DNA from: an uncultured Bacteroidota bacterium
GTDB taxonomy: Bacteria; Bacteroidota; Bacteroidia; Chitinophagales; Chitinophagaceae
Length of the DNA: 38,622 bases
NCBI GenBank assembly: GCA_903875055.1
Contig: CAIQUX010000312.1
Coordinates: 1 to 38,622, forward strand
Reading direction: 5' to 3'
In this document: one piece after another, positions 6,312-23,337 of the stretch
How the letters are laid out: every line of letters starts with the position of its first letter
How positions within the stretch are numbered: the first letter of the stretch is position 1
Position numbers and translations under genes: made by a program
Notes under the pieces: generated by a model
The model's input: the letters and a program-made list of their open reading frames with translations, nothing else
What the model was told of the DNA's origin: nothing
Database searches by the model: none

Positions 6312-7475
6312 ATGAAATCATTGGAACAACTATTAGCCGAATGCGAAGAAGCCGCATTCGACCTTCAATTCAAAAGGGCGAAGCGATGGAAGGCCGAAGA
6401 TGAGACACGAGTAATAGTAGGTTATTTGCCAACCTATATTCCTCGAGAGATTATTCATGCAGCAAATGGTATCGCCGTAGGTATCATGGGTACAGGTGAC
6501 AGGAAACAAATCATAAAAGGTGATGCATATTACCAGTCCTATATATGCCATCTTCCAAGAGGAATCATTGAGATGGCCCTTGACACGAATCTCGAAGGCT
6601 TCGATGGATTCCTTTTCCCTGCCATTTGTGATTGTGTCCGTAATCTATCAGGAATGTTTAAACTGTCCAATAAAGGAAAGTTTCAGCGTTATTTCGATTA
6701 CCCACAGAATTTCTCTGCACATATCGGAGGTAAGTTTTATATCCAGGAACTTGAAAAGGTTCTGGAGGATATTTTTAATGTAAACGGGGTAAGGGTCACC
6801 ACTGAATCGTTGAACCATTCGATTGGCTTATATAATACCAACCGTCAGCTGATTGAAGCCATATATGATATCCGTGAAGCAAGTCCATGGAAACTTTCGG
6901 CCGTGGAGACCTATTATCTATTACGGGCAGGTTTGGGAATGCCGGTTGAGGAGCATAACGAAATCCTCGAACAGGTCGTTGGATATCTTCAGAATGAACG
7001 GGGTGAACCGATGGATAATACACGGGTAGTTGTTTCTGGCTCGTTTTGCGAACAACCGCCAATCGGATTGATCAAGTCGATTGAACTTGCCGGATGTTAT
7101 ATAGTGGATGATGACTTCATGCTGGGTTCGAGATTCATTATCGGTGATATCGATCATCATACGGACAATCCTTTGTCTGCCCTTTCAGAAGCCTATATCC
7201 ATCAGAGCACATTCTCTTCCGCATACTACGATGTCGGTAATCCTAAAGGAAAGAGGCTGGTGGCACTTGCTCAACGGCGTATGGCTGACGGGATCATTTT
7301 CTGTGCAGCAAGTTTTTGCGATCCGGCCTTACTCGACCGGCCCGAATTGCAGAAGGAAGCGGATGCCGCAGGACTCCCACATATCAATTTTCAGTTTCAC
7401 GAAAACACCGGTCAGTTCAAAATTATCAAGGAGCAGGCGGGAACTTTTTCAGACTCCATTAAACTCTGGGCATAA
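6312..7475 (+). CDS. bcrC: Benzoyl-CoA reductase subunit C (class I, ATP-dependent; BcrC/BadD-like)
   Basis: 387 aa 2-hydroxyacyl-CoA dehydratase-family protein, conserved Cys contexts (YICHLPRG, PAICDCVRN, AASFCDPALLDRP); gene order bcrCBAD. Confidence 0.9.
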   Translation: MKSLEQLLAECEEAAFDLQFKRAKRWKAEDETRVIVGYLPTYIPREIIHAANGIAVGIMGTGDRKQIIKGDAYYQSYICHLPRGIIEMALDTNLEGFDGFLFPAICDCVRNLSGMFKLSNKGKFQRYFDYPQNFSAHIGGKFYIQELEKVLEDIFNVNGVRVTTESLNHSIGLYNTNRQLIEAIYDIREASPWKLSAVETYYLLRAGLGMPVEEHNEILEQVVGYLQNERGEPMDNTRVVVSGSFCEQPPIGLIKSIELAGCYIVDDDFMLGSRFIIGDIDHHTDNPLSALSEAYIHQSTFSSAYYDVGNPKGKRLVALAQRRMADGIIFCAASFCDPALLDRPELQKEADAAGLPHINFQFHENTGQFKIIKEQAGTFSDSIKLWA

Positions 7476-7533
7476 CAGCATTCACAAGTGAATGATGCAA
7501 GAAATTAACTAATACAATCATAAAACAGTAAAG

Positions 7534-8835
7534 ATGTCAAGTCATAAAGAAGCGATCAAAGAAAACAGCATGATCATCCAGAAGGAGATGCTCGCAAAAC
7601 AATTCAAGGACCTTAGCATGGCAAAGGAACTGGGTAAGAAAGTGGTTTATACTTTCGTGCCCGGCAACCTGACCGAGCTGATTCTTTCCTTTGATATGCT
7701 CCCGGTCTATCCTGAAATCAACGCACTGCAATCAGGGATGAGAAAGAAATCCGCAGAATATATACGTGATGCTGAAAAGATAGGTTTTTCAGAGGATGTC
7801 TGCACCTATGTGAAGTGCGATATAGGAATGATGCTGAACGGGAATATCGGCCCGACAGGTGAAAAAATTCCTCCGCCTGACTTGCTTTTGCTGAGCTACA
7901 CCGGATGTTTCACTTTCCTGAAGTGGTTTGAGAATCTCGAAAGGCTCTACCCGGGAGTTCCGGTGGCCATGCTGCATACTCCTTATCAGGAGGATGGTGT
8001 AATGACGGAAGACCAGATTAATTACATGGTGAAACAAATGAAGGAAGAAGTGATTCCAAAGATGGAAATGGTCTCAGGGCAGAAGTATGATCATGCCAGA
8101 CTTTCAAAAATGATGGAGAATTCCGCCAAGGCCGAGGACTTGCTGGTGAAAATTCTTGAAAGTGCCAAACTGGTCCCTTCACCGATCGATGCATATTTCG
8201 CAGGTGTTTATTATATCGGCCCTATCTTCACTGCATTCAGGGGAACACAAGAAGCAGTGGATTATTATACTGAACTTTGGAATGAAGTACAGCAACGTAT
8301 CGAACTCGGTCTTGGCCCCGTGACCCCGGAAGGTGAGATCAAGGAAGAAAAATTCCGACTCGTAGTTGAAGGCCCTCCGAACTGGACAAACTTCCGCGAA
8401 TTCTGGAAGATCTTTTATGATATGGGGGCGGTTATTGTCGCTTCATCCTATACCAAGGTAGGCGGAGTCTATGATCTCGGTTTCCGTCATGATCCGAAAG
8501 AACCGCTGGAAAGTTTATCGAAATATTGCATGGGTGTCTATACGAACATGAACCTGCCGCAACGTGTTGAGATGCTTGAAAACTATGTGAAGGAGTACAA
8601 GGCAGACGGATTTCTCATCAATTCTATCAAAAGCTGCAATTCATTCTCGGCTGGTCAGCTGATGATTATGCGCGAGATCGAACAGCGCGCCAGCGTGCCG
8701 GTCGGGTTTATCGAATCTGATCTTGTCGACCCACGGTATTTCTCCTATTCGAATATCAAGAATAGGTTAGAATCCTATTTCCAGATGCTGGAGCAACGTA
8801 AGATCATTTTAAAACAGGAAGCAACCACAATTTAA
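7534..8835 (+). CDS. bcrB: Benzoyl-CoA reductase subunit B (BcrB/BadE-like)
   Basis: 433 aa; Cys contexts DVCTYVKCD, SYTGCFTFLKWF, SIKSCNSFSAGQ; gene order. Confidence 0.9.
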   Translation: MSSHKEAIKENSMIIQKEMLAKQFKDLSMAKELGKKVVYTFVPGNLTELILSFDMLPVYPEINALQSGMRKKSAEYIRDAEKIGFSEDVCTYVKCDIGMMLNGNIGPTGEKIPPPDLLLLSYTGCFTFLKWFENLERLYPGVPVAMLHTPYQEDGVMTEDQINYMVKQMKEEVIPKMEMVSGQKYDHARLSKMMENSAKAEDLLVKILESAKLVPSPIDAYFAGVYYIGPIFTAFRGTQEAVDYYTELWNEVQQRIELGLGPVTPEGEIKEEKFRLVVEGPPNWTNFREFWKIFYDMGAVIVASSYTKVGGVYDLGFRHDPKEPLESLSKYCMGVYTNMNLPQRVEMLENYVKEYKADGFLINSIKSCNSFSAGQLMIMREIEQRASVPVGFIESDLVDPRYFSYSNIKNRLESYFQMLEQRKIILKQEATTI

Positions 8836-8847
8836 AACACAACATGT

Positions 8848-10269
8848 ATGTATAAATATTATCTCGGAGTCGATCTGGGTTCTACCACATCCAAAGCGGT
8901 TATCATCAACGAACAAGATGAGATCATAGGCCGCGGTATCACGAATACACGCTCAAATTATTCAGTTGCTGCGGATATCGCCAGAGACGAAGCCATCTAT
9001 AATGCAAGGTTCTCCATCCTTCAGAAAAATATCCAGAAGGAAATCGAATTCAATCCTTCCTATCAGAAATATATTGCCGATCTGGCAAGTGTGTTCCAAT
9101 ATGAACAGTTCAAGGTAAGGCTTGACCGTTTGGGTGAGGAATTGGTAAAGACTTGTCATACTATGTTTGCTGATGAAGAAAAGCGGAAAATAATGTTAGG
9201 TCATCTTATCGCCATTCGTAAGGCCTTTAAGCCGGTGATCAAACATGATTATCTGTATAACAATCTCGGCAGCAAGAACCAGTTTTTTAGGGATATCGTT
9301 TCCGAAAAATACAATGAAGAGGTAAACAAACTCGAGATGTCTCTGTTCGAGCCGCTGATGACCATATGGGATAAGAGCATCAGCCCGGCTGAGAATGAAA
9401 GGGTGCAGTTCAATTTCAAAGAACTTATCCATAAGGCAATGGATGAACTGAAACATAAATACAAAAATCTTCCGGATACATCAACCGAAAACACAAGTAT
9501 TAATTTCGATGCCGAGATGAACTTGCTGAAAGGCAACTTTGACCAGGTGTCCGATACACTCAGGAAACATATAGATGAGATTGCAGATCTCGAATTCAAT
9601 ATCGCCAATATGACGGGTACCGGATATGGACGCGCCTTGCTGCCGTTCCCTGAGGATTGCATTCGTTCCGAAATCTTATGTCATGCGTTCGGTGCTCATG
9701 CCGTTTTCCCTGATACGAGGACAGTACTCGATATCGGTGGACAGGATACCAAAGCCATACAGGTAGACAAACACGGATTGGTGACAAGTTTCCAGATGAA
9801 CGATCGTTGTGCGGCTGGTTGCGGCCGTTACCTCGGATACATCGCCGATGAAATGAGCATTTCCATCAATGAACTTGGTCCTATGGCCATGCAGGCTGAA
9901 AAGGAAGTGACCATCTGTTCGACTTGCACCGTATTCGCAGGAGCGGAGTTGCGTGAATTGACCAATCTGGGAGAGAAACGGGAAGATATCCTTGGCGGTC
10001 TGCACAGGGCAATCATCATGCGTGCCATGTCGCTCATCGCACGATCAGGCGGTGTATTCAACGAATTTACCTTCACAGGCGGTGTGGCACGAAATCCTGC
10101 TGTGATTAAATACCTCACTCAACTGGTCAGGGAAAATTATGGGGAGAGTATAAAAATCAATATCCATACGGATTCTATTTTCATGGGGGCGCTTGGAGGT
10201 GCCATGTTTGCAAGAAGAAATTTAAACCTTGACCTGCCATCTGTCAAGAAAGTAAAAGAGATGGCCTAA
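8848..10269 (+). CDS. bcrA: Benzoyl-CoA reductase ATPase subunit A (BcrA/BadF-like)
   Basis: GVDLGSTTSKAV, DIGGQDTKAI, NDRCAAGCGRYLG, CSTCTVFAGAE, FTGGVARN ASKHA-ATPase motifs; long insertion as in BcrA. Confidence 0.9.
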   Translation: MYKYYLGVDLGSTTSKAVIINEQDEIIGRGITNTRSNYSVAADIARDEAIYNARFSILQKNIQKEIEFNPSYQKYIADLASVFQYEQFKVRLDRLGEELVKTCHTMFADEEKRKIMLGHLIAIRKAFKPVIKHDYLYNNLGSKNQFFRDIVSEKYNEEVNKLEMSLFEPLMTIWDKSISPAENERVQFNFKELIHKAMDELKHKYKNLPDTSTENTSINFDAEMNLLKGNFDQVSDTLRKHIDEIADLEFNIANMTGTGYGRALLPFPEDCIRSEILCHAFGAHAVFPDTRTVLDIGGQDTKAIQVDKHGLVTSFQMNDRCAAGCGRYLGYIADEMSISINELGPMAMQAEKEVTICSTCTVFAGAELRELTNLGEKREDILGGLHRAIIMRAMSLIARSGGVFNEFTFTGGVARNPAVIKYLTQLVRENYGESIKINIHTDSIFMGALGGAMFARRNLNLDLPSVKKVKEMA

Positions 10270-10286
10270 CAATTAATACTAATACA

Positions 10287-11126
10287 ATGAAGACTTCTTT
10301 ATTTACAATGGGTATTGACGTCGGGAGCAATTTTATCAAATTGGTGCTGATGGATTACTCCGACCATCCAGAAATCGTTGAGAAACATACCGAAAAGATC
10401 AGGAAGAGAAACCCGACTACGGTGGCTGATGAGATGATACAGACTATGCTTCAGAAACATCATCTGAAGTACGAGGATATTGCCTACCTGGCATCTACCG
10501 GTGAAGGCGACATGGTAAAACGCAAACGCGGACATTTCTACGGGATGACCACACATGCGAAAGGTGCTCATTTTCTTTTCCCTGATGCCAGGACGGTGGT
10601 CGATATGGGCGCTCTGTTTGTAAGGGCTATCAAGATTTCACCTGATGCACGTGTGGAAGATTATAAGATGACAGGACAGTGCGCATCGGGTTCAGGGCAA
10701 TTTGTGGAGAACATATCCCGTTATCTTGGATTGTCCATTGAAGAAGTCGGTGATGTGTCATTGAGCGCGACTGCACCTGAAATTTCTTCTGGTATATGTG
10801 CAGTGCTAGCAGAAACCGATGTCATCAACATGGTCTCCCGGGGAATCAAGACTCCGGACATCATCAAAGGAATCCACCTGTCAATTGCGAACCGGATCAT
10901 CAAATTGCTGAGTTCACTGAAAGGGGAATCTCCGATTATTCTTACTGGTGGTATGGCTCTGAACAAAGGAATGTTACAAGCTATCAGTGAACAACTGGCA
11001 GAGACCGGTAAACAATTTGAAATAAAGACCCATCCCGATGCAGGATATGCAGGAGCCATCGGCGCAGCATTGTGGGGAGGATTCAGGCATATCAAGCTAA
11101 AAGAAAAACAAGCGGTCGCAGTATAA
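10287..11126 (+). CDS. bcrD: Benzoyl-CoA reductase ATPase subunit D (BcrD/BadG-like)
   Basis: GIDVGSNFIKLV, TGQCASGSGQFVENISRYLG, GICAVLAETDVINMVSRG; 279 aa. Confidence 0.9.
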   Translation: MKTSLFTMGIDVGSNFIKLVLMDYSDHPEIVEKHTEKIRKRNPTTVADEMIQTMLQKHHLKYEDIAYLASTGEGDMVKRKRGHFYGMTTHAKGAHFLFPDARTVVDMGALFVRAIKISPDARVEDYKMTGQCASGSGQFVENISRYLGLSIEEVGDVSLSATAPEISSGICAVLAETDVINMVSRGIKTPDIIKGIHLSIANRIIKLLSSLKGESPIILTGGMALNKGMLQAISEQLAETGKQFEIKTHPDAGYAGAIGAALWGGFRHIKLKEKQAVAV

Positions 11127-11136
11127 AACTCATGTT

Positions 11137-13281
11137 ATGACAGAAGTGCCGGTCAATACCGAAAACAAAAACGTGGGGAATGAAAAACGGATTCATGAAC
11201 TGGATTCACTTTTCAAACCGAAAGCCATTGCCATCATCGGCGCATCATCCAAGGAATTATCCATTGGAAATGTCATCCTTAAGAATCTGGTTCATTACGG
11301 GTATACCGGACAGATTTATCCCATCAACCCGAAAGAACCTGAAATTCGAGGGATTAAGGCTTACCCGACTATTTTTGATGTCCCTGGCGACATTGATTTG
11401 GCGCATATCATTATTCCGAGCAGATTCGTTCCACAGATGATTGAAGATTGCGGTAAGAAAGGAATCAAATCAGTCATTATCAACTCGGCCGGTTTTAGCG
11501 AGATGGGTGAAGAAGGGATGGCATTACAAAAAGAGTTTCTGGCAAATGCAAAAAAATATGGCGTCCGGGTCTTTGGCCCGAATTGTCAGGGAATCATTAA
11601 CGCTGACCCACAATACAATGCGTATTGTGATTTTACATTCACATTTCCGAAGCCCGGCAGCATTTCGATTGTAGCCTTAAGCGGCGGAGTGGGAGCCTTC
11701 ATCATGCAAAGCTTGTTTGACCTCGATATTGGAATGCGGCTTTATGCCTCGAACGGAAACGCTTGTGATGTTTCTATTTCCGAAGTGGTTGATTACTATG
11801 GTAATGATGATGGCACAAGGGCGATTATCTTGTATACGGAAGGATTTCATAATCCGAAGGAATTTATGGATGTGGCCAAACGCGTTTCAAAGAAAAAACC
11901 GATTCTTGCGATGAAAGCAGGTCGAACCGAAGAAGGCGCAAAGGCAGCTGCTTCACATACTGGTTCACTCGCAGGTGTTGACATCGCCACGGAGTTGATA
12001 TTCGAAAAGACCGGTATCCTCTCCTTTCAAAACGAAGAAGAGATGTGTCAGGCAGCAATGGCATTTTCGACACAACCGCTTCCTAAAGGCAATCGTGTAG
12101 GCATCATCACGAATACAGGAGGCCCTGCAGTGATAGCCACCGATGAATTGGTGAGCGCGGGTTTGCAACTTCCAGCTTTATCGGAACGGGCTAAGGAAAT
12201 CCTTAAGGAGACGATGCTTCCTGAGGCATCAATCGGGAATCCTGTAGACGTAGTTGCAACAGGCGGTGGAACACATTTCCGAAGTGCGCTGGATGTAATG
12301 ATGGATGAGGATGACATCGATGCCGTATATATCAATTTTGTTACTGCTCCGTTTACTGATACAAACGAGGTGGCAAGGAATATTGTGGAAGTAAACAAGC
12401 AGAAGCGAAAACCGATGGTCTGCAACTTCATGACCAATATGAGTTTGGAACGTTTTCAGGAAACGGCAAAAATCCTGCGGGATGGGGGAGTGCCTTGTTA
12501 TAGCTTTCCAACCACTGCCGCGAAAGCGCTGGGTGCATTGTATAAGTATCATAAGATGCAATCGAGAAATATAGGTAAAGAGAAAGATTTCAATGATGTA
12601 AATAAAAAAGAAGCCGGCAATATTCTGCAACTGGCACGAAACGAGAACAGGGAGTTTCTCACCTCTGCCCAAACATACCAACTACTTGCCCATTATAAGA
12701 TTCCTTTTGCAGACTGGCGCATTGCATCGGATACTGAAGACGCTGTAAAAGCCGCAGAAGTGATTGGATTCCCTGTGGTAATCAAAGCCGATTCCTCTTC
12801 CCTGATTCATAAAAGTGATCAGGGCGGTGTTGCCATTAACCTTAATAATGCGGATGAGGTCCGTTCAACTGTTGTCAGAATGAAGGCATTATTCGACGCG
12901 GCTGATCTCAAATTTTTTATCCAGAAATATTTGCCAGGTGGACGGGAGCTGATAGCAGGTGTCAGTGCAAAGAAAGACCTCGGGCATCTGATCATGTTCG
13001 GTATCGGAGGTATCTATGTTGAAGTGTTGAAGGATGTGGTCTTCAAGATTGCGCCTGTCACAGAGGTAGAAGCTGATGAGATGCTTGCATCGCTGAAGGC
13101 TTCAAAATTACTGGATGGCGTTCGCGGTGAAAAGGGTATCGACAAACAACTTGTGACCGACATCATTCTCCGTGTTTCGCAACTTGTCACGGATTTTCCT
13201 GAAATACAAGAGATGGATATGAACCCGATTATGGCATTCGGTGACAACGCGTTTGTAGTTGATGCAAGAATAAAAATCTGA
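11137..13281 (+). CDS. ADP-forming (NDP-forming) acyl-CoA synthetase/acetate-CoA ligase family
   Basis: CoA-binding domain (KAIAIIGASSKELSIGN), HTGSLAG phospho-His motif, C-terminal ATP-grasp domain; 714 aa. Confidence 0.9.
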   Translation: MTEVPVNTENKNVGNEKRIHELDSLFKPKAIAIIGASSKELSIGNVILKNLVHYGYTGQIYPINPKEPEIRGIKAYPTIFDVPGDIDLAHIIIPSRFVPQMIEDCGKKGIKSVIINSAGFSEMGEEGMALQKEFLANAKKYGVRVFGPNCQGIINADPQYNAYCDFTFTFPKPGSISIVALSGGVGAFIMQSLFDLDIGMRLYASNGNACDVSISEVVDYYGNDDGTRAIILYTEGFHNPKEFMDVAKRVSKKKPILAMKAGRTEEGAKAAASHTGSLAGVDIATELIFEKTGILSFQNEEEMCQAAMAFSTQPLPKGNRVGIITNTGGPAVIATDELVSAGLQLPALSERAKEILKETMLPEASIGNPVDVVATGGGTHFRSALDVMMDEDDIDAVYINFVTAPFTDTNEVARNIVEVNKQKRKPMVCNFMTNMSLERFQETAKILRDGGVPCYSFPTTAAKALGALYKYHKMQSRNIGKEKDFNDVNKKEAGNILQLARNENREFLTSAQTYQLLAHYKIPFADWRIASDTEDAVKAAEVIGFPVVIKADSSSLIHKSDQGGVAINLNNADEVRSTVVRMKALFDAADLKFFIQKYLPGGRELIAGVSAKKDLGHLIMFGIGGIYVEVLKDVVFKIAPVTEVEADEMLASLKASKLLDGVRGEKGIDKQLVTDIILRVSQLVTDFPEIQEMDMNPIMAFGDNAFVVDARIKI

Positions 13282-13383: not shown

Positions 13384-14601
13384 ATGTATAAGATAGAAAC
13401 GACTAAAATCATGAAGGAAATAATGTCAAATTATTTTCTTGGCATGAAGGACGCACGGAAGAAATACGCTTGGTGTACCAGCGTTGGTCCTGCCGAGTTA
13501 TTGCGTTCCTTCGGTTTTGAAGTTCATTTCCCTGAGAATCATGGTGCCTTATTAGGGGCTACCCGCTCTTCCGGCGATTTGATTCCTGAGAGTGCCAGCC
13601 TCGGGTACAATAATGATATCTGTTCCTATCTAACTTCTGATATCGGATCTTATCTGAAAAAACAGACCCCGCTGCAGGAGCATTACGGATTGGAAGGTCC
13701 TCCCAAACCGGATATCATAGTCTACAATACGAATCAGTGTCGCGAAGTGCAGGATTGGTTCACTTACTTTGCTAGGGAATTCAATTGCCCTATCGTTGGG
13801 ATCACCCCGCCCCGTCATGTGGATGAAGTAACCGATGTGCATATCAACGATGTCAGTAACCAGTTTAAGGCTATGATTCCTGCCTGTGAAGCGGCAAGTG
13901 GTCAGAAATTTGATATCGACCGATTCCGGGAGACACTCCAACTTAGCAAGGAAGCTACAGACCTTTGGAAAAAGGTATTATGGACAGCCACTGCTTCCCC
14001 TTCTCCAATCAGTTTTTTCGATGCTACCATTCACATGGGACCTATTGTGGTACTCCGAGGAACCCAGGTCGCCAAGGATTATTATACAACCCTTTTGAAG
14101 GAACTTGAATCGAATGTCAGAAATAAGGTCGGGTTTCTTGAGAAAGAACGATGCCGCATTTATTGGGATGGGATGCCCATTTGGGGTAAGCTGAGGCCTA
14201 TGTCAGAATTATTCCTCCAGAATCATGCGGCCGTCGTGGCTTCCACTTATTGTAACAGTTGGGTATTTGATGCCTTTGATGTAGAGCACCCATTTGAATC
14301 TTCAGCGAAAGCCTACACCGAAATTTTCATCAACAGGAGCGAGGAGGCAAAGGAAAAGATTTTGGCCAGATTGGTTGAAGACTTCAGGATAGACGGCATG
14401 ATTTTTCATGATGCAAAGACCTGTGCCAATAATTCCAACTCGCGATTTGGTATGCCGCAACGTATCACTGAGAAACTTGGCATTCCGACACTGGTGGTAG
14501 AAGGAGACCTCTGCGATTTGCGGTTCTATTCAGAAGGACAAACCACTACGAAGATTGAAAGTTTCATTGAGCAGATTGAAAATTCGAAAGTGTATAGTTG
14601 A
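13384..14601 (+). CDS. BcrB/HgdB-like 2-hydroxyacyl-CoA dehydratase-family subunit (second, orphan copy)
   Basis: 405 aa; conserved Cys contexts DICSYLTSD, NTNQCREVQDWF, HDAKTCANNSNS parallel to those of BcrB. Confidence 0.82.
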   Translation: MYKIETTKIMKEIMSNYFLGMKDARKKYAWCTSVGPAELLRSFGFEVHFPENHGALLGATRSSGDLIPESASLGYNNDICSYLTSDIGSYLKKQTPLQEHYGLEGPPKPDIIVYNTNQCREVQDWFTYFAREFNCPIVGITPPRHVDEVTDVHINDVSNQFKAMIPACEAASGQKFDIDRFRETLQLSKEATDLWKKVLWTATASPSPISFFDATIHMGPIVVLRGTQVAKDYYTTLLKELESNVRNKVGFLEKERCRIYWDGMPIWGKLRPMSELFLQNHAAVVASTYCNSWVFDAFDVEHPFESSAKAYTEIFINRSEEAKEKILARLVEDFRIDGMIFHDAKTCANNSNSRFGMPQRITEKLGIPTLVVEGDLCDLRFYSEGQTTTKIESFIEQIENSKVYS

Positions 14602-14626
14602 TAGATGAAGTAAAACGATTATAATC

Positions 14627-15097
14627 ATGAATGAAATACAGACCATCAAGGACAAGATATATAAACTTTCAACAGGGGAGAAAGTCAGTCCGCTGGAGTT
14701 GGAGAAACGGATCGGCGAGAAGTGCCATTATGTGCAGTATGTTGTTGTCGGCAAAGACGACAAGGAGCATCCAGTGGCTATGATATTTCCGAATCAAAAA
14801 TTGTTTCCGAATCCTGATTATCAGTTATCTCCTGAGGAAGGTTGTTTTTGCCCTCGGAGTCTGGATGAGTTGGGAAGATGTCTCAGCGGTTGCCTGAAAA
14901 GAGTGAACCAGGGGATTGAACATCAAGTCTCAAAACTTGCATCCGCGACCATCATCAATACTGGTTTAACGGCAGAGAATACTCCCCCTTTGTCGTCCGA
15001 TGAGATTTTCAATAAATATAAGGCCATTCTACAAGATAAATACGGGAAAAATGTTCCTGCAGAAGAAGAAATCTACGTAATAAAAAATCTCCAATGA
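14627..15097 (+). CDS. Small protein resembling an isolated C-terminal domain of long-chain acyl-CoA synthetase, with extra cysteines
   Basis: YKLSTGEKVSPLELEKRIGEKCHYVQYVVVGKDDKEHPVAMIFPN resembles the ACSL post-linker segment; C-terminal GLTAENTPPLSSDEIFNKYKAIL; no AMP-binding N-domain. Confidence 0.6.
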   Translation: MNEIQTIKDKIYKLSTGEKVSPLELEKRIGEKCHYVQYVVVGKDDKEHPVAMIFPNQKLFPNPDYQLSPEEGCFCPRSLDELGRCLSGCLKRVNQGIEHQVSKLASATIINTGLTAENTPPLSSDEIFNKYKAILQDKYGKNVPAEEEIYVIKNLQ

Positions 15098-16956
15098 ATA
15101 AAAATATTGAACTCTCCGGCATTAAATTCGGCGTTGTCGGCTTAGGCCCTGTCGGGATGATATTAGCCGTAAAACTCAAAGAAGCAGGATGTGATGTTGC
15201 CATATGCGATAGGAACGAATTCAAACTGAAGAAAATCAGGGAGGAGGGGATTATATTGGAAAATGTGATCGAGTCGACTACCCAATTTGATAAGGTTTTT
15301 AACTCCCCTAAAGATATGCGGAATCTCGATCTGGATTATCTGGTCTTCTCACTAAAGACCTATCAGACACTGAGTGCCGCCAAAGAAGCTGAAATTCTCA
15401 ATTCAGAGAAAATTACCTTGGTCTCAGCACAGAACGGTATTGATTCGGAAAAATTGGTTTCTTCTGTTTTCGGTGAGTCTAAAACACTTCGCATGGTCAT
15501 TAACTATGCAGGAAATCTCCGAGCACCTAATGTGGTTCGGGTTTCATTTGTCACCCCACCCAATTATATCGGCTCGATGGATGATAACCGGACTGCTCAA
15601 GCGGACATGTTAGCTTCTATTCTGAATAGTGTCGGTTTTACGACGCAAAAACTGGATTCTTTTGATCTGGTGAAGGGGAGTTGGGAAAAAACCATCCTGA
15701 ATTCCTCGGTTAGCGCTTTATGCGGAGTGGGACGTCTGACCATGGCTGAAGCAATGGCTGATGCAGACACATTGGAACTTGTCGAACAGATCATCAATGA
15801 AGGAATTGAGGTGGCGGGAAAGGAGAAGATTACATTTCCGGATGACTTCGTAAGGAAATGTATGAAGTACCTTCGTAAAGGGGGAGACCATTTTCCTTCC
15901 CTGGCCGTAGATCTCATCAATAACAGGCAGACAGAGGTTGATTACTTCAATGGAAAGATCGTCGAGTACGGAAAGAAGCATTATGTAAAGACCTCTCTGA
16001 ACCTGGCATTCACAAATATGGTAAAGGCGATGACCAATAAAAATGTCCTTGCCAGAATACCAGGTGTCGATGGTGAATTGAACCGCCTCATCATTACCAA
16101 GGGATTGCTTGAAAAGAATAAACCACCTGTTTTTTACAAGGAACAGGATTATTTCCTTGGAATCGATTTGGGGTCGGCATTCACAAAATTCACCATCATA
16201 GATGCCAAAGGCAATACCGTGTTCAGGAATACCTTGCAGACGATGAATAAAGATCGTCACGCCATGCGTAATATCCTTCAGGCGATACATGCCACCTTCA
16301 ACATCGTACACAGTTGTGCAACAGGATACGGTAGAAAGCATTTTACAGAAACGGACATAGTGAAGACTGAAATCAATTGCGCCGCAGCCGGTGTGTCTGA
16401 ATTATTCAGCGGCGAAAAGAATATCGTTGACATCGGAGGTGAGGATATCAAGATCATTCATACCGATCAAGAAAATCATGTCGCTCATTTCCACATGAAT
16501 GATAAATGCGCCGCAGGAACAGGAGCGTTTCTGGAAGAGATTTCAGAGCGGGCTGAAATAAACATTTCTGATATGAGCAGTCTCGCTTCGAATTCAGAAT
16601 TTGAAAAGGAATTGAATAGCTATTGTACGGTATTCGCAAAGACAGAAATTATGAACTGGGTGTTTGACGGGATGCCCCGCCATGATATCGCCCGGGGAAT
16701 CTATTGCTCTATCGCCAACAAAGTGGCTAAGATGCGACTGTATCCCAATATCCCAACCTTCATGATCGGAGGTGTGATTGCCTATCACCCTTACTTAAAC
16801 AAGGTGCTGAGCGATAAATTAAATAAGGAAATCAGGACAATCGAGCAGCCTCAACATATTGTATCATATGGCGCTGCATTAATTGCACGGCAGACCTGGC
16901 TTTCGAATATCGGCAAACAAATTATTCAGACTGAAACCCTAACAAACTCTTTATGA
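15094..16956 (+). CDS. Fusion protein: N-terminal ketopantoate-reductase (ApbA/PanE)-like dehydrogenase plus C-terminal BcrA/BadF/HgdC-type ATPase activator
   Basis: N-term VVGLGPVG Rossmann, SAQNGIDSE, WEKTILNSS, SLAVDLINNRQTEVDYFNG; C-term from about residue 353 GIDLGSAFTKF, DIGGEDIKII, NDKCAAGTGAFLE, NSYCTVFAKTEI, FMIGGVIAYHP; one continuous 620 aa ORF. Confidence 0.88.
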   Translation: MNKNIELSGIKFGVVGLGPVGMILAVKLKEAGCDVAICDRNEFKLKKIREEGIILENVIESTTQFDKVFNSPKDMRNLDLDYLVFSLKTYQTLSAAKEAEILNSEKITLVSAQNGIDSEKLVSSVFGESKTLRMVINYAGNLRAPNVVRVSFVTPPNYIGSMDDNRTAQADMLASILNSVGFTTQKLDSFDLVKGSWEKTILNSSVSALCGVGRLTMAEAMADADTLELVEQIINEGIEVAGKEKITFPDDFVRKCMKYLRKGGDHFPSLAVDLINNRQTEVDYFNGKIVEYGKKHYVKTSLNLAFTNMVKAMTNKNVLARIPGVDGELNRLIITKGLLEKNKPPVFYKEQDYFLGIDLGSAFTKFTIIDAKGNTVFRNTLQTMNKDRHAMRNILQAIHATFNIVHSCATGYGRKHFTETDIVKTEINCAAAGVSELFSGEKNIVDIGGEDIKIIHTDQENHVAHFHMNDKCAAGTGAFLEEISERAEINISDMSSLASNSEFEKELNSYCTVFAKTEIMNWVFDGMPRHDIARGIYCSIANKVAKMRLYPNIPTFMIGGVIAYHPYLNKVLSDKLNKEIRTIEQPQHIVSYGAALIARQTWLSNIGKQIIQTETLTNSL

Positions 16957-18215
16957 AATCATATCATTCAATAGAAAAAGGAATCGCCATCATCTATGAT
17001 GATATTTATCTTGTGAACGGTATGCGAACCCCGTTTGGAAAATATTGCGGAACGCTGGCAAATGTTTCCCCGACAGATCTGGGTATCATTGCGAGCCGAG
17101 CAGCGATGGAAAAATGTAATGTGCTTCCCGGCGAAATTGACCAAGCCATCATCGCAAATATCGGACAAGCTTCGGGTGATGCCTATTTTATTCCACGGCA
17201 TATTGCTTTATTTGCCGGATTGCCAATGTCAGTTCCTTCCTTGATGGTGCAACGGATTTGTGCTTCCGGATTTGAAACCATCATTACGGCTTCCGAACAG
17301 ATTACGCTTGGAAAGGCAGGGACTGTTCTTTGTTGCGGAACAGAAAATATGTCACTCTCACCTACCGTCAGCTTTGGCAACCGCATGGGCTATCAGCTTG
17401 GCAGGCCGGTGTTCAGGGATATGCTTTGGGATGCGCTGGATGATACCGCAGCTGGTTATCCGATGGGATATACTGCCGAAAATGTCGCGATGAAACATCA
17501 GATTACCCGTCAGCAATGCGATGAATTTGCAATGACTTCTTTTCAACGTTCTGTCAATGCGCGTGATAATAATTTGCTTAAAGATGAAATCACACCGGTG
17601 AATCCGATCATATTTGAAATCGAAGGGTTGAAACCAAGGAAGGTCCGCATACCTGGAGGAATAAAGAATTTTGTTTCAGATGAGCAAGTTCGCGAAACGA
17701 CCCTTGAGGCGTTATCAAAGTTAGCACCAGTCTTTTCTGATGTGGGCGTTCTTACTGCAGGGAATTGCAGCGGAATCGTCGATGGTGCCGCTGCCGTTGT
17801 GGTTGCCCATAAATCGTCAATTGAGGCAAAAGGATTGAAACCAATTGCAAGAGTGGTTGCTTCAGCCAGTTGCGGTATCGACCCGAAACTGATGGGCCTC
17901 GGCCCGGTTCCCGCGATCCGTCTTCTTCTTGAGATGACCGGATTGACGATGGAAGATATCGGTTTGATTGAAATTAACGAAGCCTTCTCAGCGCAGGTAA
18001 TCGGTTGCGAAATTGAACTCGGACTTGATCGAGAAAAACTCAATGTGAATGGTGGGGCCATTGCAATTGGTCACCCGTTGGCAGCAACAGGATTGAGGTT
18101 ATCGCTCACATTGGCGAGGGAAATGATTTCAAGAAATGTGAAATACGGAATCGGTTCAGCTTGTATAGGTGGCGGACAAGGCACGGCCGTCTTATTTGAA
18201 AATATAAATTTATAG
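16953..18215 (+). CDS. Thiolase (acetyl-CoA C-acyltransferase)
   Basis: RICASGFETI, NGGAIAIGHPLAATGLR, GSACIGGGQG thiolase signatures; ATGA overlap with the previous gene. Confidence 0.93.
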   Translation: MKSYHSIEKGIAIIYDDIYLVNGMRTPFGKYCGTLANVSPTDLGIIASRAAMEKCNVLPGEIDQAIIANIGQASGDAYFIPRHIALFAGLPMSVPSLMVQRICASGFETIITASEQITLGKAGTVLCCGTENMSLSPTVSFGNRMGYQLGRPVFRDMLWDALDDTAAGYPMGYTAENVAMKHQITRQQCDEFAMTSFQRSVNARDNNLLKDEITPVNPIIFEIEGLKPRKVRIPGGIKNFVSDEQVRETTLEALSKLAPVFSDVGVLTAGNCSGIVDGAAAVVVAHKSSIEAKGLKPIARVVASASCGIDPKLMGLGPVPAIRLLLEMTGLTMEDIGLIEINEAFSAQVIGCEIELGLDREKLNVNGGAIAIGHPLAATGLRLSLTLAREMISRNVKYGIGSACIGGGQGTAVLFENINL

Positions 18216-18217
18216 TA

Positions 18218-19327
18218 ATGTCAGATCAAATAGAAAAAACAGCATCCTTACCCGTTCAGGGGAAAGTAGAGGAGAAGATGTATCAATGGCAGATGGTTGA
18301 GCCTGATAAAGAATTTCAATTATCAGAGACCGCTCTTCCGGAATTAAAGGATGGAGAGGCTCTGATAAAGATTTCAGGTTGCGGTGTATGCCATACCGAT
18401 ATCAGTTTCTGGCATTACGGTGTGCAGACAAAACATTTATTACCCCTCACACTCGGACATGAAATAAGTGGTGTCGTAGTGAGAGGTGCGGATGAATGGT
18501 TAGGGAAGAACGTGATCATACCGGCTGTCCTGCCATGCGGCGAATGCGAATTGTGTGTGAATGGCAGGAGTAATATCTGCAGGAACCAGTTGATGCCAGG
18601 AAATGACTTTCATGGTGGATTTGCCTCCCATATCAGTGTGCCGGCAAGATTCCTTTGTCCAGTGCCGGACAAAGTATTAGAACAATATTCACTTGAGCAA
18701 TTAGCTGTCATCGCTGATGCGATTTCCACTCCTTATCAGGTGATGAAGAAATCCGAACTGGTCTCTGGGGATTTCGCTATCGTCATAGGTGTTGGGGGAG
18801 TTGGAATTTACGGTGCACAGATTGCAAAGATCTTCGGAGCTAAAGTATTGGCATTGGATATTGATGATGAAAAACTCGAAATAGCCAAACAGAACGGGGT
18901 GGATGTCACATTGAACACAAAAGGGATGGATGCCAAGACTGTGAAAGAAAAAGTAAAGGAAATTGCAAAGGAGCTGAAAGCACCGAAATTTGGATGGAAG
19001 ATCTTTGAGATTTCCGGCAGTAAAGCAGGACAAGAGCTGGCCTTCAATCTGATCACATTTGCCTCTACGCTTTCTATCGTCGGATTCACAATGGATAAAG
19101 TGGAAGTTCGATTAAGCAACCTGATGGCCTTCGATGCGAAACTCATTGGTACCTGGGGTTGTAAACCTGAATTGTATCCAGAAGTCGTAGATCTTGTTGC
19201 AGATGGCAAATTGAAGATTGGTCAGTTTGTACAGACTTTTCCAATGTCAAAAATCAATGAGGTGTTTCGAAACACACTTGAGCATAAATATACTAAGCGC
19301 TCGGTTCTGGTCCCTGATTTTTATTGA
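18218..19327 (+). CDS. had: 6-hydroxycyclohex-1-ene-1-carbonyl-CoA dehydrogenase-like Zn-alcohol dehydrogenase
   Basis: GCGVCHTDISFWHYGVQTKHLLPLTLGHEISG, CGECELCVNGRSNICRNQLMPGNDFHGGFA; context with oah/dch. Confidence 0.88.
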   Translation: MSDQIEKTASLPVQGKVEEKMYQWQMVEPDKEFQLSETALPELKDGEALIKISGCGVCHTDISFWHYGVQTKHLLPLTLGHEISGVVVRGADEWLGKNVIIPAVLPCGECELCVNGRSNICRNQLMPGNDFHGGFASHISVPARFLCPVPDKVLEQYSLEQLAVIADAISTPYQVMKKSELVSGDFAIVIGVGGVGIYGAQIAKIFGAKVLALDIDDEKLEIAKQNGVDVTLNTKGMDAKTVKEKVKEIAKELKAPKFGWKIFEISGSKAGQELAFNLITFASTLSIVGFTMDKVEVRLSNLMAFDAKLIGTWGCKPELYPEVVDLVADGKLKIGQFVQTFPMSKINEVFRNTLEHKYTKRSVLVPDFY

Positions 19328-19451
19328 CAGTAATTGGATATGAAAAATCAGCGATGAAATCAACTATCCAGATGAAATGAACCATTTAAAAAAGAACGCA
19401 AACACATAAAATTCAGTTGAAGACATTTATCATATTTTAAAATAATACAAC

Positions 19452-20552
19452 ATGACAGAGCTTAAAAACCATAATCTTATCCGCACTGATTTTAGTGAAA
19501 TTTTATTCGAAAAAAGACCATGCCTCGACAAGGATGGGACCCCGGTGGATAAATTATTTACCGCGTGGATATTCCTAAACAATCCGAAGCAATTCAATTC
19601 CTATACTACAGCTGCGATTAAGGAAATTATCCTCGCTTTCCGCCAGGCTTCCAATGACCGAAGTGTCGTAGCCGTCGTCCTGACCGGTGTTGGAGACAAG
19701 GCGTTCTGCACCGGAGGAAATACCAAGGAATATGCAGAATACTATGCCGGTAATCCGCAAGAGTATTCACAATATATGCGCCTCTTTAACGATATGGTCT
19801 CTACCATCCTGCTGTGCGAAAAGCCGGTTATCTGCCGTGTCAACGGCATGCGAATTGGTGGCGGGCAGGAAATCGGAATGGCATGTGATTTCAGTGTCGC
19901 CAGTGACATGGCAAGATTCGGACAAGCTGGTCCAAAACACGGCAGTGCTGCTATCGGTGGTGCTACTGATTTTCTTCCCTTGTATGTGGGTGTGGAAAGG
20001 GCCATGATGTCACTTACCTTATGTGAACCTTGGACGGCACATCAGGCCTATTATTATGGTGTAATCACCGATATCGCCCCCGTATTGAAAGTTGACGGAA
20101 ATTTCATTCCGAATCCGATGGTGAACCTGAATAAGATTACAGATGAATTCGGAAGAATATGCTTCGGTACGATGAAAACCGGTGAAGCCTTGTCTCAGGC
20201 GAAGGAAGTTATGTCAAAGGCCGAAACCGATTTAAGTATGTTGGATCAAACGGTCAATATGCTCATCGCTAAAATCCTTCACACCTTCCCGAATTGCATG
20301 TCTAAAACCATCAGTGAAGTCCGTAAATTCAAATTGGAACATTGGGATAAAAACAAGGAAGGCAGTCGTGAATGGCTGGCATTGAACATGATGACGGAAG
20401 CCAAGGCAGGATTCCGGGCCTTCAATGACGGGCCGAAAGATAACCGTGAAATTGATTTCATTCTGCTAAGGCAATTGCTCGCTGAAGGACATGAGTGGAA
20501 TGAAGAATTACACAACAAGATTTCTCCACAATATCAAACGGCAACAGTTTAA
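19452..20552 (+). CDS. oah: 6-oxocyclohex-1-ene-1-carbonyl-CoA hydrolase (Oah/BamA)
   Basis: Highly characteristic FNDMVSTILLCEKPVICRVNGMRIGGGQEIGMACDFSVASDMARFGQAGPKHGSAAIGGATDFLPL. Confidence 0.93.
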   Translation: MTELKNHNLIRTDFSEILFEKRPCLDKDGTPVDKLFTAWIFLNNPKQFNSYTTAAIKEIILAFRQASNDRSVVAVVLTGVGDKAFCTGGNTKEYAEYYAGNPQEYSQYMRLFNDMVSTILLCEKPVICRVNGMRIGGGQEIGMACDFSVASDMARFGQAGPKHGSAAIGGATDFLPLYVGVERAMMSLTLCEPWTAHQAYYYGVITDIAPVLKVDGNFIPNPMVNLNKITDEFGRICFGTMKTGEALSQAKEVMSKAETDLSMLDQTVNMLIAKILHTFPNCMSKTISEVRKFKLEHWDKNKEGSREWLALNMMTEAKAGFRAFNDGPKDNREIDFILLRQLLAEGHEWNEELHNKISPQYQTATV

Positions 20553-20555
20553 ATT

Positions 20556-21329
20556 ATGCAAAAGATAAAGCTCTCGTTTAGCCATGAAAATACTGTCGCA
20601 CGTGTCATCTTAGATGACGGGAAAGGGAATGTACTCGATCACATCATGATGGAGGAATTGCAGGACATCCTGACTTCATTCAAGGAAATGAAGGGATTGA
20701 AATTGATCGTGTTTGAAGGAGCCGGGAAACATTTCTCGTTCGGTGCCAATGTGGATGAACATAAAAAGGAAGCGGCGGCTGTTATGTTAAGGTCCTTTCA
20801 TCAGTTGTTTTACTCGTTGAAGGACTTGTCTGTACTAACTCTGGCAAAGATTTCAGGTCAATGTCTGGGTGGCGGAATGGAACTTGCTATCATGTGCAAT
20901 TTCTTGTTTGCCGATAAGTCAGCTAAAATGGGACAGCCCGAAATCGTGTTAGGTGTCTTTCCTCCTCCTGCATCCATCATCCTGCCCGAGAAAATAGGAT
21001 TGGCAAGAGCTGAAGAATTGTTGCTAACAGGAAAAATTATTTCAGCCGAGGAAGCTAAAACGGCCGGTTTACTGAATGAATTATTTGAGGATAAGGATAC
21101 GCTTGAACAGGGTGTCAATTCGTTTATCGAAAACTACATCATACCCCGGAGTTCGAGTTCGCTGCGTTTTGGCGTACGTGCCTCACGCACCAAATTCAAC
21201 CATGTACTTACAAACTTCCTCCAATCACTTGAGATGATGTATGTGAATGAGTTGATGAAGACCCATGATGCAAATGAAGGAATCAATGCATTTATTGAGA
21301 AGCGGAAACCGAATTGGGAAAATTATTAA
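20556..21329 (+). CDS. dch: Cyclohexa-1,5-diene-1-carbonyl-CoA hydratase
   Basis: Crotonase fold; DDGKGNVLDHIMMEELQ, GAGKHFSFGANVDEHKK, GQCLGGGMELA; 257 aa; context. Confidence 0.88.
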   Translation: MQKIKLSFSHENTVARVILDDGKGNVLDHIMMEELQDILTSFKEMKGLKLIVFEGAGKHFSFGANVDEHKKEAAAVMLRSFHQLFYSLKDLSVLTLAKISGQCLGGGMELAIMCNFLFADKSAKMGQPEIVLGVFPPPASIILPEKIGLARAEELLLTGKIISAEEAKTAGLLNELFEDKDTLEQGVNSFIENYIIPRSSSSLRFGVRASRTKFNHVLTNFLQSLEMMYVNELMKTHDANEGINAFIEKRKPNWENY

Positions 21330-21339
21330 AACTATTCAT

Positions 21340-23337
21340 ATGAAGACGATTAAACTTGTTGGTGTAGTAGGTGCCGGTACAATGGGCGCGGCGCTGGCTC
21401 AAAAATTTGCACAAGAGAATTTCAATGTGATACTTGCTGACCGTGAAATGTCCTTCGTTGAAAGAGGGCTGAATAACATCAGTAAGATGCTCGAAGAGGG
21501 CATTGAAAAAAAAGTATTTTCACCTGAGCAGGTGAAGGGTTATTTATCGGCTATCAAGGGAACGGCACGACTTGAAGATCTCAAGGATTGTGATCTGGTG
21601 GTTGAAGCGATCTATGAAAACTTCGATGCGAAAACTGACTTGTTCAGGAAGCTTAGCGAGGTATTGAGGCCGGAGGCCATTATTGCCACAAATACGTCTT
21701 CATTTTCAATCTCAGAATTGGCAAGGTCTGTAAAATTTCCTGAGCGATTTATCGGCTTACATTATTTCTATCATGCTGCCAAAAACCGTTTGGTTGAAAT
21801 TATTCCGTGTGAAATGACCTCGGAGGAAGTAGTTGAAACTGCCAGGATATTTTCAGTTCAGTCGGGTAAGGATGCAATTTCTTGCCGTGACGCATATGGC
21901 TTTGTCGTCAACAGATTTTTTGTTCCATGGCTGAACGAATCAACTAAGTTGCTTGAGGAAAAGATTGCCAATATCCCAACAATAGAAGATGTGTGTTTGA
22001 AAACCTTTGGAATTTCTATGGGGCCTTTTGCACTGATGAATGCAACCGGAGTCCCGGTCGCATATCATTCAGAGAAGACACTTGAGGTATTCGGTCCATT
22101 ATATAAAGTCTCAGAAAAATTGAAGGATCAGGCGGAAAGAAATGAACATTGGGATTTGGATGGAGAGATTTCTGACGATGAGGGGGCAAGAAAAAAAATC
22201 AGGGACAGGATGCTGGGTGTCATTCTTCTAATCTGTTCGCAATTGCTCGATGAAAAAGTTTGCAGAGCAGTAGATATCAATCGTGGCGCACGGATAGGTC
22301 TTCAATGGAAGAAGGGCCCGATTGAATTGATGAAAGAACTGGGACATGGCGAGGTCAAATCGCTGATTGCTGAAGCGGCTAGGTTATATCAGATGGAATT
22401 GCCCGTTTCAGTGGGTGAAGAACACTGGAAAATGAGTTATGTGGATCTGCATAAGGAGAATCATATTGCTGTGATTACCATGACCCGACCTGAAGACCTG
22501 AACGCATTGAATGAAGAGGTGATGATGCAATTGCACGAAAAATTTTCTGATGCGGATGCGGACACTGCCATAGACACCATCTTCCTTACAGGGACCGGAA
22601 AAGCCTTTGTGGCAGGCGCCGACATAAAGTTTTTTGTTACGCATATCAGGACGAATACGATCAATGAGATTGAAGACTTTGCAGCCTTCGGTCAAAAAGT
22701 ATGTTCAGGGATTGAGCATTCCAAAAAGAAAGTGGTTGCCATGATCAATGGGCTTGCGTTGGGTGGCGGACTGGAACTTGCCTTATGTGCAGATGTCCTG
22801 TTGGCAACACCCAAAGCGGTGATGGCATTTCCTGAAACCGGCATTGGCATTTACCCTGGACTAGGTGGCACTCAGCGCACTGCTACTAAAATCGGTAAGT
22901 CATTGGCCAGATATCTGATTCATACAGGCAAGATGCTGACAGCGGCTGAGGCTTATGACATGGGACTGATTGATGCAATCATTCCCGTTGATGAAGTTCC
23001 TCAACTGTTCTCAGGGAAGAAAGCGGTTCCGGTATTAAGGGAGTTTCATTTAAGTGAAAAATTAAAGAACATCAATGACTTCTTTGAATTGAATACGATC
23101 GATAAATTACTTTCCCATACATATATTGCCAAAGGAATAAATGATGAGGATGCTGAAAAATTGTTCAAATCAATCAAACGGAAGGCTCCCATCGCCATTC
23201 AGATTGCCGACAAACTTATTCGTGAAGCTAAAGGTTGCGAGTCAGAGTTAGATCATATGCGGGAAATATTTTCAACCAAAGACACCTTGCTGGGGTTAAC
23301 CTCCATCGGAAAGAAGGTTGAATACAGCGGTGAGTGA
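21340..23337 (+). CDS. 3-hydroxyacyl-CoA dehydrogenase/enoyl-CoA hydratase fusion (HAD domain first)
   Basis: N-term VGVVGAGTMGAALAQKFA, TNTSSFSISELA, GLHYFYHA; C-term GTGKAFVAGADIKFF, NGLALGGGLELALCADV; start moved from 21265 to ATG 21340. Confidence 0.9.
   Translation: MKTIKLVGVVGAGTMGAALAQKFAQENFNVILADREMSFVERGLNNISKMLEEGIEKKVFSPEQVKGYLSAIKGTARLEDLKDCDLVVEAIYENFDAKTDLFRKLSEVLRPEAIIATNTSSFSISELARSVKFPERFIGLHYFYHAAKNRLVEIIPCEMTSEEVVETARIFSVQSGKDAISCRDAYGFVVNRFFVPWLNESTKLLEEKIANIPTIEDVCLKTFGISMGPFALMNATGVPVAYHSEKTLEVFGPLYKVSEKLKDQAERNEHWDLDGEISDDEGARKKIRDRMLGVILLICSQLLDEKVCRAVDINRGARIGLQWKKGPIELMKELGHGEVKSLIAEAARLYQMELPVSVGEEHWKMSYVDLHKENHIAVITMTRPEDLNALNEEVMMQLHEKFSDADADTAIDTIFLTGTGKAFVAGADIKFFVTHIRTNTINEIEDFAAFGQKVCSGIEHSKKKVVAMINGLALGGGLELALCADVLLATPKAVMAFPETGIGIYPGLGGTQRTATKIGKSLARYLIHTGKMLTAAEAYDMGLIDAIIPVDEVPQLFSGKKAVPVLREFHLSEKLKNINDFFELNTIDKLLSHTYIAKGINDEDAEKLFKSIKRKAPIAIQIADKLIREAKGCESELDHMREIFSTKDTLLGLTSIGKKVEYSGE

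Follow-up and report, generated by a model that had tools for sequence, protein, structure and literature searches.

Three consecutive genes, here called g1, g2 and g3, lie within a benzoyl-coenzyme A (CoA) operon of an uncultured Bacteroidota bacterium (Chitinophagaceae) and appear to represent a widespread, undescribed variant of dehydratase/activase systems that is tied to the benzoyl-CoA pathway. The operon was analysed in a stretch of 38,622 nucleotides, hereafter the window (contig CAIQUX010000312.1 of assembly GCA_903875055.1). g1 encodes a lone catalytic-type subunit of the HGD-D family, which includes benzoyl-CoA reductases (BCRs) and 2-hydroxyacyl-CoA dehydratases (HADs), g2 the C-terminal domain of an AMP-forming acyl-CoA ligase as a protein of its own, and g3 a fusion of a 2-oxoacid reductase with an ATP-dependent activase. 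It is likely that g1 performs a dehydratase reaction, and the case for aromatic substrates is slightly weaker than an even one. An earlier reading of the letters alone (the sequence-only reading) had described the three genes as consecutive and co-directional, as we also find, with a gap of 25 bp between g1 and g2 and an overlap of 4 bp between g2 and g3 (15094-15097). A further 4-bp overlap joins g3 to the thiolase gene, and the ADP-forming ligase gene acsNDP ends 102 bp upstream of g1. The gene order bcrC-bcrB-bcrA-bcrD-acsNDP-g1-g2-g3-thl-had-oah-dch-hcdh forms one operon, so that BCR genes and the ligase flank g1-g3 upstream and thiolase, ring-cleavage and 3-hydroxyacyl-CoA dehydrogenase/hydratase genes downstream, in agreement with the BCR and beta-oxidation neighbours noted previously. 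The g1-g2-g3 unit does not form a module of its own but belongs to a single long benzoyl-CoA operon, and the only three HGD-D genes of the source genome (bcrC, bcrB and g1) are all located inside it.

Synteny was examined in 44 related contigs, nearly all from Bacteroidota, plus three from Neomarinimicrobiota and one from Ignavibacteriae. Some 20 further Bacteroidota contigs repeat the order acsNDP-g1-g2-g3-thl, with g1 and g3 proteins that are 70-90% identical, which indicates an arrangement beyond chance; the absence of synteny, on which the sequence-only reading was prepared to give up its module, was not observed. Three patterns were recognised. Most loci, including the window, read bcrD-acsNDP-g1-g2-(dehydrogenase-activase)-thl; a second group reads bcrD-(full AMP ligase)-g1-(dehydrogenase-activase), the last two fused or as two genes; and Bacteroidales loci read acsNDP-dehydrogenase-had-oah-dch-g1-activase-thl, with g2 absent. 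Among 395 Bacteroidia genomes, g1 (counted at at least 53% identity) was found in 53, of which 52 also carry BcrB, and BcrB without g1 was found in none (Fisher P ~1e-64, relatedness ignored). When both reductase classes are counted, all 53 genomes possess a benzoyl-CoA reductase. A g3-type match was present in 51 of the 52 g1 genomes searched (48/48 among the better assemblies), and a CoA ligase adjoins g1 or the dehydrogenase gene in nearly all loci. Recurrent synteny and co-occurrence of g1 with BcrB therefore sustain the proposal that a conserved set of genes, so far undescribed, goes with the benzoyl-CoA pathway; our literature search found no paper on it. Its description as a three-gene module stands only in part, as g1, the dehydrogenase and the activase form the constant core, but g2 is a lineage-specific ligase remnant, missing in Bacteroidales and replaced by a full AMP-forming ligase elsewhere; the set should read as ligase, g1, dehydrogenase and activase. 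The hosts are uncultured lake and sediment Bacteroidota. g2 was found in none of 13 same-genus genomes (G001-G013), which shows the cluster to be patchy within the genus and probably acquired by horizontal movement; on plasmids, only distant family members (24-27% identity) were found.

The set is also independent of the reductase class. G685, the sole g1 genome without BcrB in the class sample, carries class II reductase genes (bamBCDE) instead. Along its whole length, the BamB-like protein of G685 matches BamB of Geobacter (4z3w, 1268 bits), and the genes that follow agree in order and length with BamC, BamD and BamE; the g3-type match of this genome is the dehydrogenase part, and a more distant activase adjoins g1. 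In three Bacteroidales loci (L042, L044 and L051) the bam genes are divergent from an acsNDP-dehydrogenase-...-g1-activase row, the bamCDE-like labels being based on the order and lengths of the genes and on how similar the loci are to one another. In another genome, G197, where the reductase is of the Bzd type, separate contigs carry g1, the activase gene and two copies of the dehydrogenase gene, one of which abuts genes for 4-hydroxybenzoyl-CoA reductase (hcr) while the other overlaps an aminotransferase gene. As g1, activase and dehydrogenase are kept across Bcr, Bzd and Bam types, the module follows the pathway and not one reductase. HGD-D proteins were restricted to BcrB, BcrC and g1 in five genomes, and to BzdN, BzdO and g1 plus one partial match in G197. 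Pairing of g1 with BcrC as a general rule was rejected because class II and Bzd-type loci retain g1, and with BcrC unable to be its general partner, g1 is likely a homodimer. The same loci bear on the possibility that g1 shares BcrC and acts as a second catalytic subunit in the reductive dehydroxylation of hydroxybenzoyl-CoA esters. Family chemistry would permit this, and the gene order of G331, in which hcr genes separate the dehydrogenase gene from the activase gene, might favour it. We regard this as very unlikely, given that bamBCDE takes the place of bcrCBAD at class II loci, that G197 has only BzdN, and that the dehydrogenase would be left without a role in a pathway where Hcr already serves 4-hydroxybenzoyl-CoA.

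bamBCDE-like genes were observed at four Bacteroidales loci (L161:1-5036, L042:1-5708, L044:1-5587 and L051:1-1454), and the full-length matches of BamB to the Geobacter metallireducens protein 4z3w (~1240-1268 bits) suggest, at the sequence level, transfer between phyla. Bzd-type class I reductase genes likewise occur in Bacteroidota (L073:7090-11220 and L142:17334-19804), and the genome containing L142 (G437) has both Bcr and Bzd types.

The affiliation of g1 with the BCR/HAD family is clear (PF06050, 207.4 bits, curated cut-off 28.4). Cys80, Cys119 and Cys347 are invariant in 61 orthologues and align with the catalytic [4Fe-4S] cluster ligands of BzdO (Cys95, 128 and 380; PMC11971306), suggesting that they ligate such a cluster in g1. 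Alignment with HadB, BzdO and MbdO revealed a HadB-like W30-C-T-S-V motif together with Glu51; the region around residue 30 reads AWCTSVGP in g1, GWSTSVFP in HadB and VYTFVPGN in BcrB, and the catalytic motif is thus W-[CS]-T-S-V, as in HadB, where the BcrB of the window reads YTFVPGN. An AlphaFold2 (AF2) model (mean confidence, pLDDT, 82; poor at residues 346-348) was closest in fold to HadB (Z 42.5, 28% identity), followed by BzdO (40.5), MbdO (38.4) and the double-cubane cluster protein DCCP (31.5). HadB is also the best NCBIfam model for g1 (217.8 bits, below its equivalog cut-off of 750), ahead of BcrB (TIGR02260, 162.6 bits against a cut-off of 486.55, where the BcrB of the window scores 683.7). 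g1 shares with the (R)-2-hydroxyisocaproyl-CoA dehydratase and activator of Clostridioides difficile, HadBC-HadI (3o3m and 4eht), the catalytic-subunit fold, the three-cysteine cluster site, the W-x-T-S-V and PEN motifs and a one-gene activase, but differs in having no beta subunit, two extra invariant cysteines (Cys31 and Cys290, also checked in 27 orthologues) and an activase fused to a ketopantoate-reductase-type dehydrogenase. With the class I catalytic subunits BcrB, BzdO and MbdO it has family, cluster site and gene cluster in common; unlike them, it forms a separate, well-supported clade among catalytic subunits in a maximum-likelihood tree, the branches of which are too long for a finer placement, and is retained alongside class II reductases. 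Sequence and model together indicate that HadB is probably what g1 works like, not what g1 is.

The second proposal of the sequence-only reading was a homodimeric, double-cubane-like ATP-dependent reductase acting on a CoA intermediate of aromatic or alicyclic type. Such an enzyme might also reduce a side product of the benzoyl-CoA pathway, and the dehydrogenase would then re-oxidise a by-product. A single HGD-D subunit with a dedicated activase does recall DCCP and its reductase (6eno and 7yyl), g1 has five invariant cysteines (31, 80, 119, 290 and 347) rather than three, and it universally accompanies benzoyl-CoA reductases. However, g1 scores 55.5 bits with the DCCP model (NF040772, cut-off 350), and the HadB fold is nearer by 11 Z units. 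The [8Fe-9S] cluster of DCCP needs six cysteines, and two of the five in g1, Cys31 and Cys290, seem to lie one column off the DCCP positions, an uncertain alignment reading in a region of low model confidence. The activase is nearer to HadI than to the DCCP reductase, and the set is retained with class II reductases, which avoid stoichiometric ATP use. This proposal has accordingly lost ground and is, in our view, distinctly unlikely.

Both halves of g3 point towards the dehydratase reading. The ketopantoate-reductase-type dehydrogenase domain (residues 11-315) scores 165.3 bits with TIGR00745 of the PanE/ApbA family (cut-off 141.35), and its AQNG, WEKTILN and TEVDYxNGK motifs, which supply the catalytic Lys, Asn and Glu, are conserved in about 70 orthologues. 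Its nearest solved chains are 2ew2 and 3wfi, the latter of which we take to be a D-mandelate dehydrogenase of the ketopantoate-reductase family, a lead rather than a test. The BcrAD/BadFG-type activase domain (residues 354-598) reaches 168.7 bits with TIGR00241 (cut-off 125.4), conserves both cluster cysteine motifs, KCAAGTG and CTVFAxTE, and is closest to HadI (4eht) and then HgdC (1hux), the activases of DCCP and methyl-BCR being more distant. BCR activases are encoded by two genes and those of dehydratase systems by one; the activase here is a single gene, as expected of a dedicated HgdC/HadI-type activase.

Taken with the pathway context, the favoured reading is that the set constitutes an entry branch feeding the benzoyl-CoA pathway from phenylalanine and tyrosine, a route as a whole to which we give a little less than an even chance. 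The dehydrogenase half of g3 would reduce the arylpyruvate derived from either amino acid to the aryl-lactate, and the neighbouring CoA ligase, ADP-forming here and AMP-forming in other lineages, would convert this to aryl-lactyl-CoA. The activase half would hydrolyse ATP to charge g1, probably a homodimer, with one low-potential electron for ketyl-radical removal of water, as in HadBC and FldBC, to provide cinnamoyl- or 4-coumaroyl-CoA. From these, the fused hydratase/dehydrogenase and the thiolase may yield benzoyl-CoA or 4-hydroxybenzoyl-CoA and acetyl-CoA, with Hcr supplying benzoyl-CoA from the latter aroyl-CoA for a reductase of either class; the sequence would be redox-neutral as far as the aroyl-CoA. 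The passage from 2-oxoacid to 2-hydroxyacid, CoA thioester and dehydration named in the sequence-only reading is thus preferred to its other proposal. Hcr forms a side branch in proteobacterial degraders. An hcrA match was present in 57 of the 58 genomes with the set (54/54 among better assemblies), and no protein near the canonical benzoate-CoA ligase model was found in any of the 58, as expected if aroyl-CoA derives from longer CoA thioesters. A start from arylpyruvate would explain the reductase half, CoA ligase, dehydratase-like enzyme, hydratase/dehydrogenase/thiolase and Hcr as standard equipment.

The same chemistry might instead serve a non-aromatic (R)-2-hydroxyacyl-CoA, branched-chain or other, with the operon merely shared with the benzoyl-CoA pathway; HadB, the closest fold and model, indeed acts on 2-hydroxyisocaproyl-CoA. 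We consider this unlikely because the set strictly accompanies benzoyl-CoA and hcr genes in some 58 genomes, and does so even with its genes dispersed (G197) or with a reductase of the other class. A 2-hydroxyglutarate bypass, in which g1 hydrates glutaconyl-CoA and oxidation to 2-oxoglutarate lets KorAB reduce ferredoxin, was prompted by korAB(C)-like genes beside several clusters and was rejected as highly improbable: kor-like genes were seen at six loci only, and glutaryl-CoA dehydrogenase-type proteins (typed by reading of a DSG-[MIV]-R-S motif) in G000, G018 and G096 leave the ordinary route open. Kor-like 2-oxoacid:ferredoxin oxidoreductase genes lie by clusters at L009:14963-17597, L014:13635-16147, L079:5912-8852 and L157, and are probably the ferredoxin source for the reductase.

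Several observations weigh against the route from aromatic amino acids or against a dehydratase role. g1 passes no equivalog cut-off and clusters in the tree with neither HadB nor BcrB. Known 2-hydroxyacyl-CoA dehydratases are alpha-beta heterodimers (PMC11574389), and no second dehydratase subunit was found in the genomes examined. The aromatic substrate is inferred, and a peripheral branch could be missing from some BCR genomes, but this set is universal. Universal Hcr is also compatible with 4-hydroxybenzoate as the main substrate, and unusual ligases may activate free benzoate instead; the ADP-forming ligase of G197, which adjoins the bzd genes and not g1, would suit a benzoate-CoA ligase. 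The aminotransferase overlapping the dehydrogenase gene in that genome scores as HisC, so this neighbour may belong to histidine biosynthesis.

The ligase slot before g1 holds an ADP-forming enzyme in the lineage of the window, while in other lineages bcrD is followed, ahead of g1, by the gene for a full AMP-forming ligase (~580 aa); this latter enzyme, for which no PDB match was found at E 1e-40, has a C-terminal domain that aligns with g2. In loci with the ADP-forming ligase in this position, g2 forms a small gene of its own, located after g1 in most loci and directly after bcrD in L155 and L156. Both ligases are present in L144, where the AMP ligase (L144:8185-9753) has an altered hinge and has lost its C-terminal catalytic segment; judged by its sequence, it is apparently decaying, an intermediate of ligase replacement. 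g2 matches the C-terminal domain only, with neither the N-terminal AMP-binding domain nor the TPSxK segment that carries the A10 catalytic lysine, and so does not qualify as an AMP-forming ligase; its AF2 model is weak (pLDDT 67), adenylation domains being the top Foldseek match (E 1.1e-3). A GC-x-CP-x9-C-x3-C motif is kept in 32 of 33 short forms and in most full ligases of the group, such as L029:5061-6803, and was not seen in the general acyl-CoA ligases inspected. Synonymous rates are saturated for dN/dS, so the proportions of nonsynonymous (pN) and synonymous (pS) differences are quoted instead: pN of 0.22-0.32 lies far below the near-saturated pS (0.22 against 0.73-0.80 in near relatives), indicating selection at the protein level. 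By its sequence, g2 is a relict ligase domain that has retained the motif and is not a core member. Its role is taken as non-catalytic and cysteine-dependent, and a metal-binding or redox function of the cysteines is our guess.

The features of the locus are collected in Table 1. TIGR02259 and TIGR02261 are best matches among the bcr proteins of the window, yet below cut-off. On the opposite strand are 4-hydroxybenzoyl-CoA-reductase-type genes with their maturation genes; in the fused protein (930 aa), the 2Fe-2S subunit precedes the molybdenum subunit.

Table 1 Features of the benzoyl-CoA locus, by position in the window
Feature	Position	Strand	Model or remark
g1, lone catalytic-type HGD-D (BCR/HAD family) subunit, 405 aa	13384..14601	+	PF06050
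g2, stand-alone C-terminal domain of AMP-forming acyl-CoA ligase, 156 aa	14627..15097	+	AMP-binding_C_3 (PF23562), 29.5 bits
g2 four-cysteine motif	14840-14893		g2 residues 72-89
g3, dehydrogenase-activase fusion, 620 aa	15094..16956	+	
g3 residues 1-345, ketopantoate-reductase (PanE/ApbA)-type NAD(P)-dependent 2-oxoacid reductase	15094..16128	+	TIGR00745
g3 residues 346-620, ATP-dependent activase, HadI/HgdC type	16129..16956	+	TIGR00241
acsNDP, ADP-forming acyl-CoA ligase	11137..13281	+	NF045493, 574 bits, under the equivalog cut-off of 1300
Thiolase	16953..18215	+	TIGR01930, over cut-off; immediately 3' of g3 in most loci
3-Hydroxyacyl-CoA dehydrogenase and enoyl-CoA hydratase fusion	21265..23337	+	PF02737, PF00378; proposed beta-oxidation steps
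bcrC, bcrB, bcrA, bcrD, class I benzoyl-CoA reductase	6312..11126	+	TIGR02263, TIGR02260, over cut-off
had, oah, dch (ring oxidation, ring opening, ring hydration)	18218..21329	+	TIGR03201, TIGR03200, over cut-off; TIGR03189, best match
4-Hydroxybenzoyl-CoA reductase-like genes	282..4006	-	TIGR03195, TIGR03194, best matches; TIGR03193, match; below equivalog cut-offs
4-Hydroxybenzoyl-CoA reductase-like beta subunit	282-1214	-	
4-Hydroxybenzoyl-CoA reductase-like fused 2Fe-2S and Mo subunits	1214-4006	-	

The proposed chemistry has precedents. By description, FldABC-FldI, the phenyllactyl-CoA dehydratase system of Clostridium sporogenes (cited in PMC13416013), resembles it in arylpyruvate reduction followed by conversion of aryl-lactyl-CoA to aryl-acryloyl-CoA; that pathway uses a CoA transferase and ends in phenylpropionate, unlike the ligase and benzoyl-CoA proposed here. 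A hypothetical route from phenylpyruvate through phenyllactyl-CoA and cinnamoyl-CoA to benzoyl-CoA has been put forward for the benzene-degrading culture BzS1 (PMC13416013). The chemical idea is the same, but it concerns benzene, a sulphate reducer outside Bacteroidota and scattered candidate genes other than this set. Our literature search found no paper linking a cinnamoyl-CoA route to these genes or to Bacteroidota.

About one in eight of the sampled Bacteroidia (52/395 plus G685) possess the benzoyl-CoA pathway and this set, without a canonical benzoate-CoA ligase. Tentatively, we suggest a single-subunit, homodimeric radical dehydratase whose activase is fused to its own 2-oxoacid reductase, a redox-neutral path from phenylalanine and tyrosine to benzoyl-CoA as standard entry across Bacteroidota, and a four-cysteine ligase domain kept after its ligase was replaced. 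If this is true, common lake and sediment bacteria would degrade aromatic amino acids anoxically by a route absent from the literature searched, and the dehydratase family would gain a one-subunit form that tests the need for a second subunit as an electron store.

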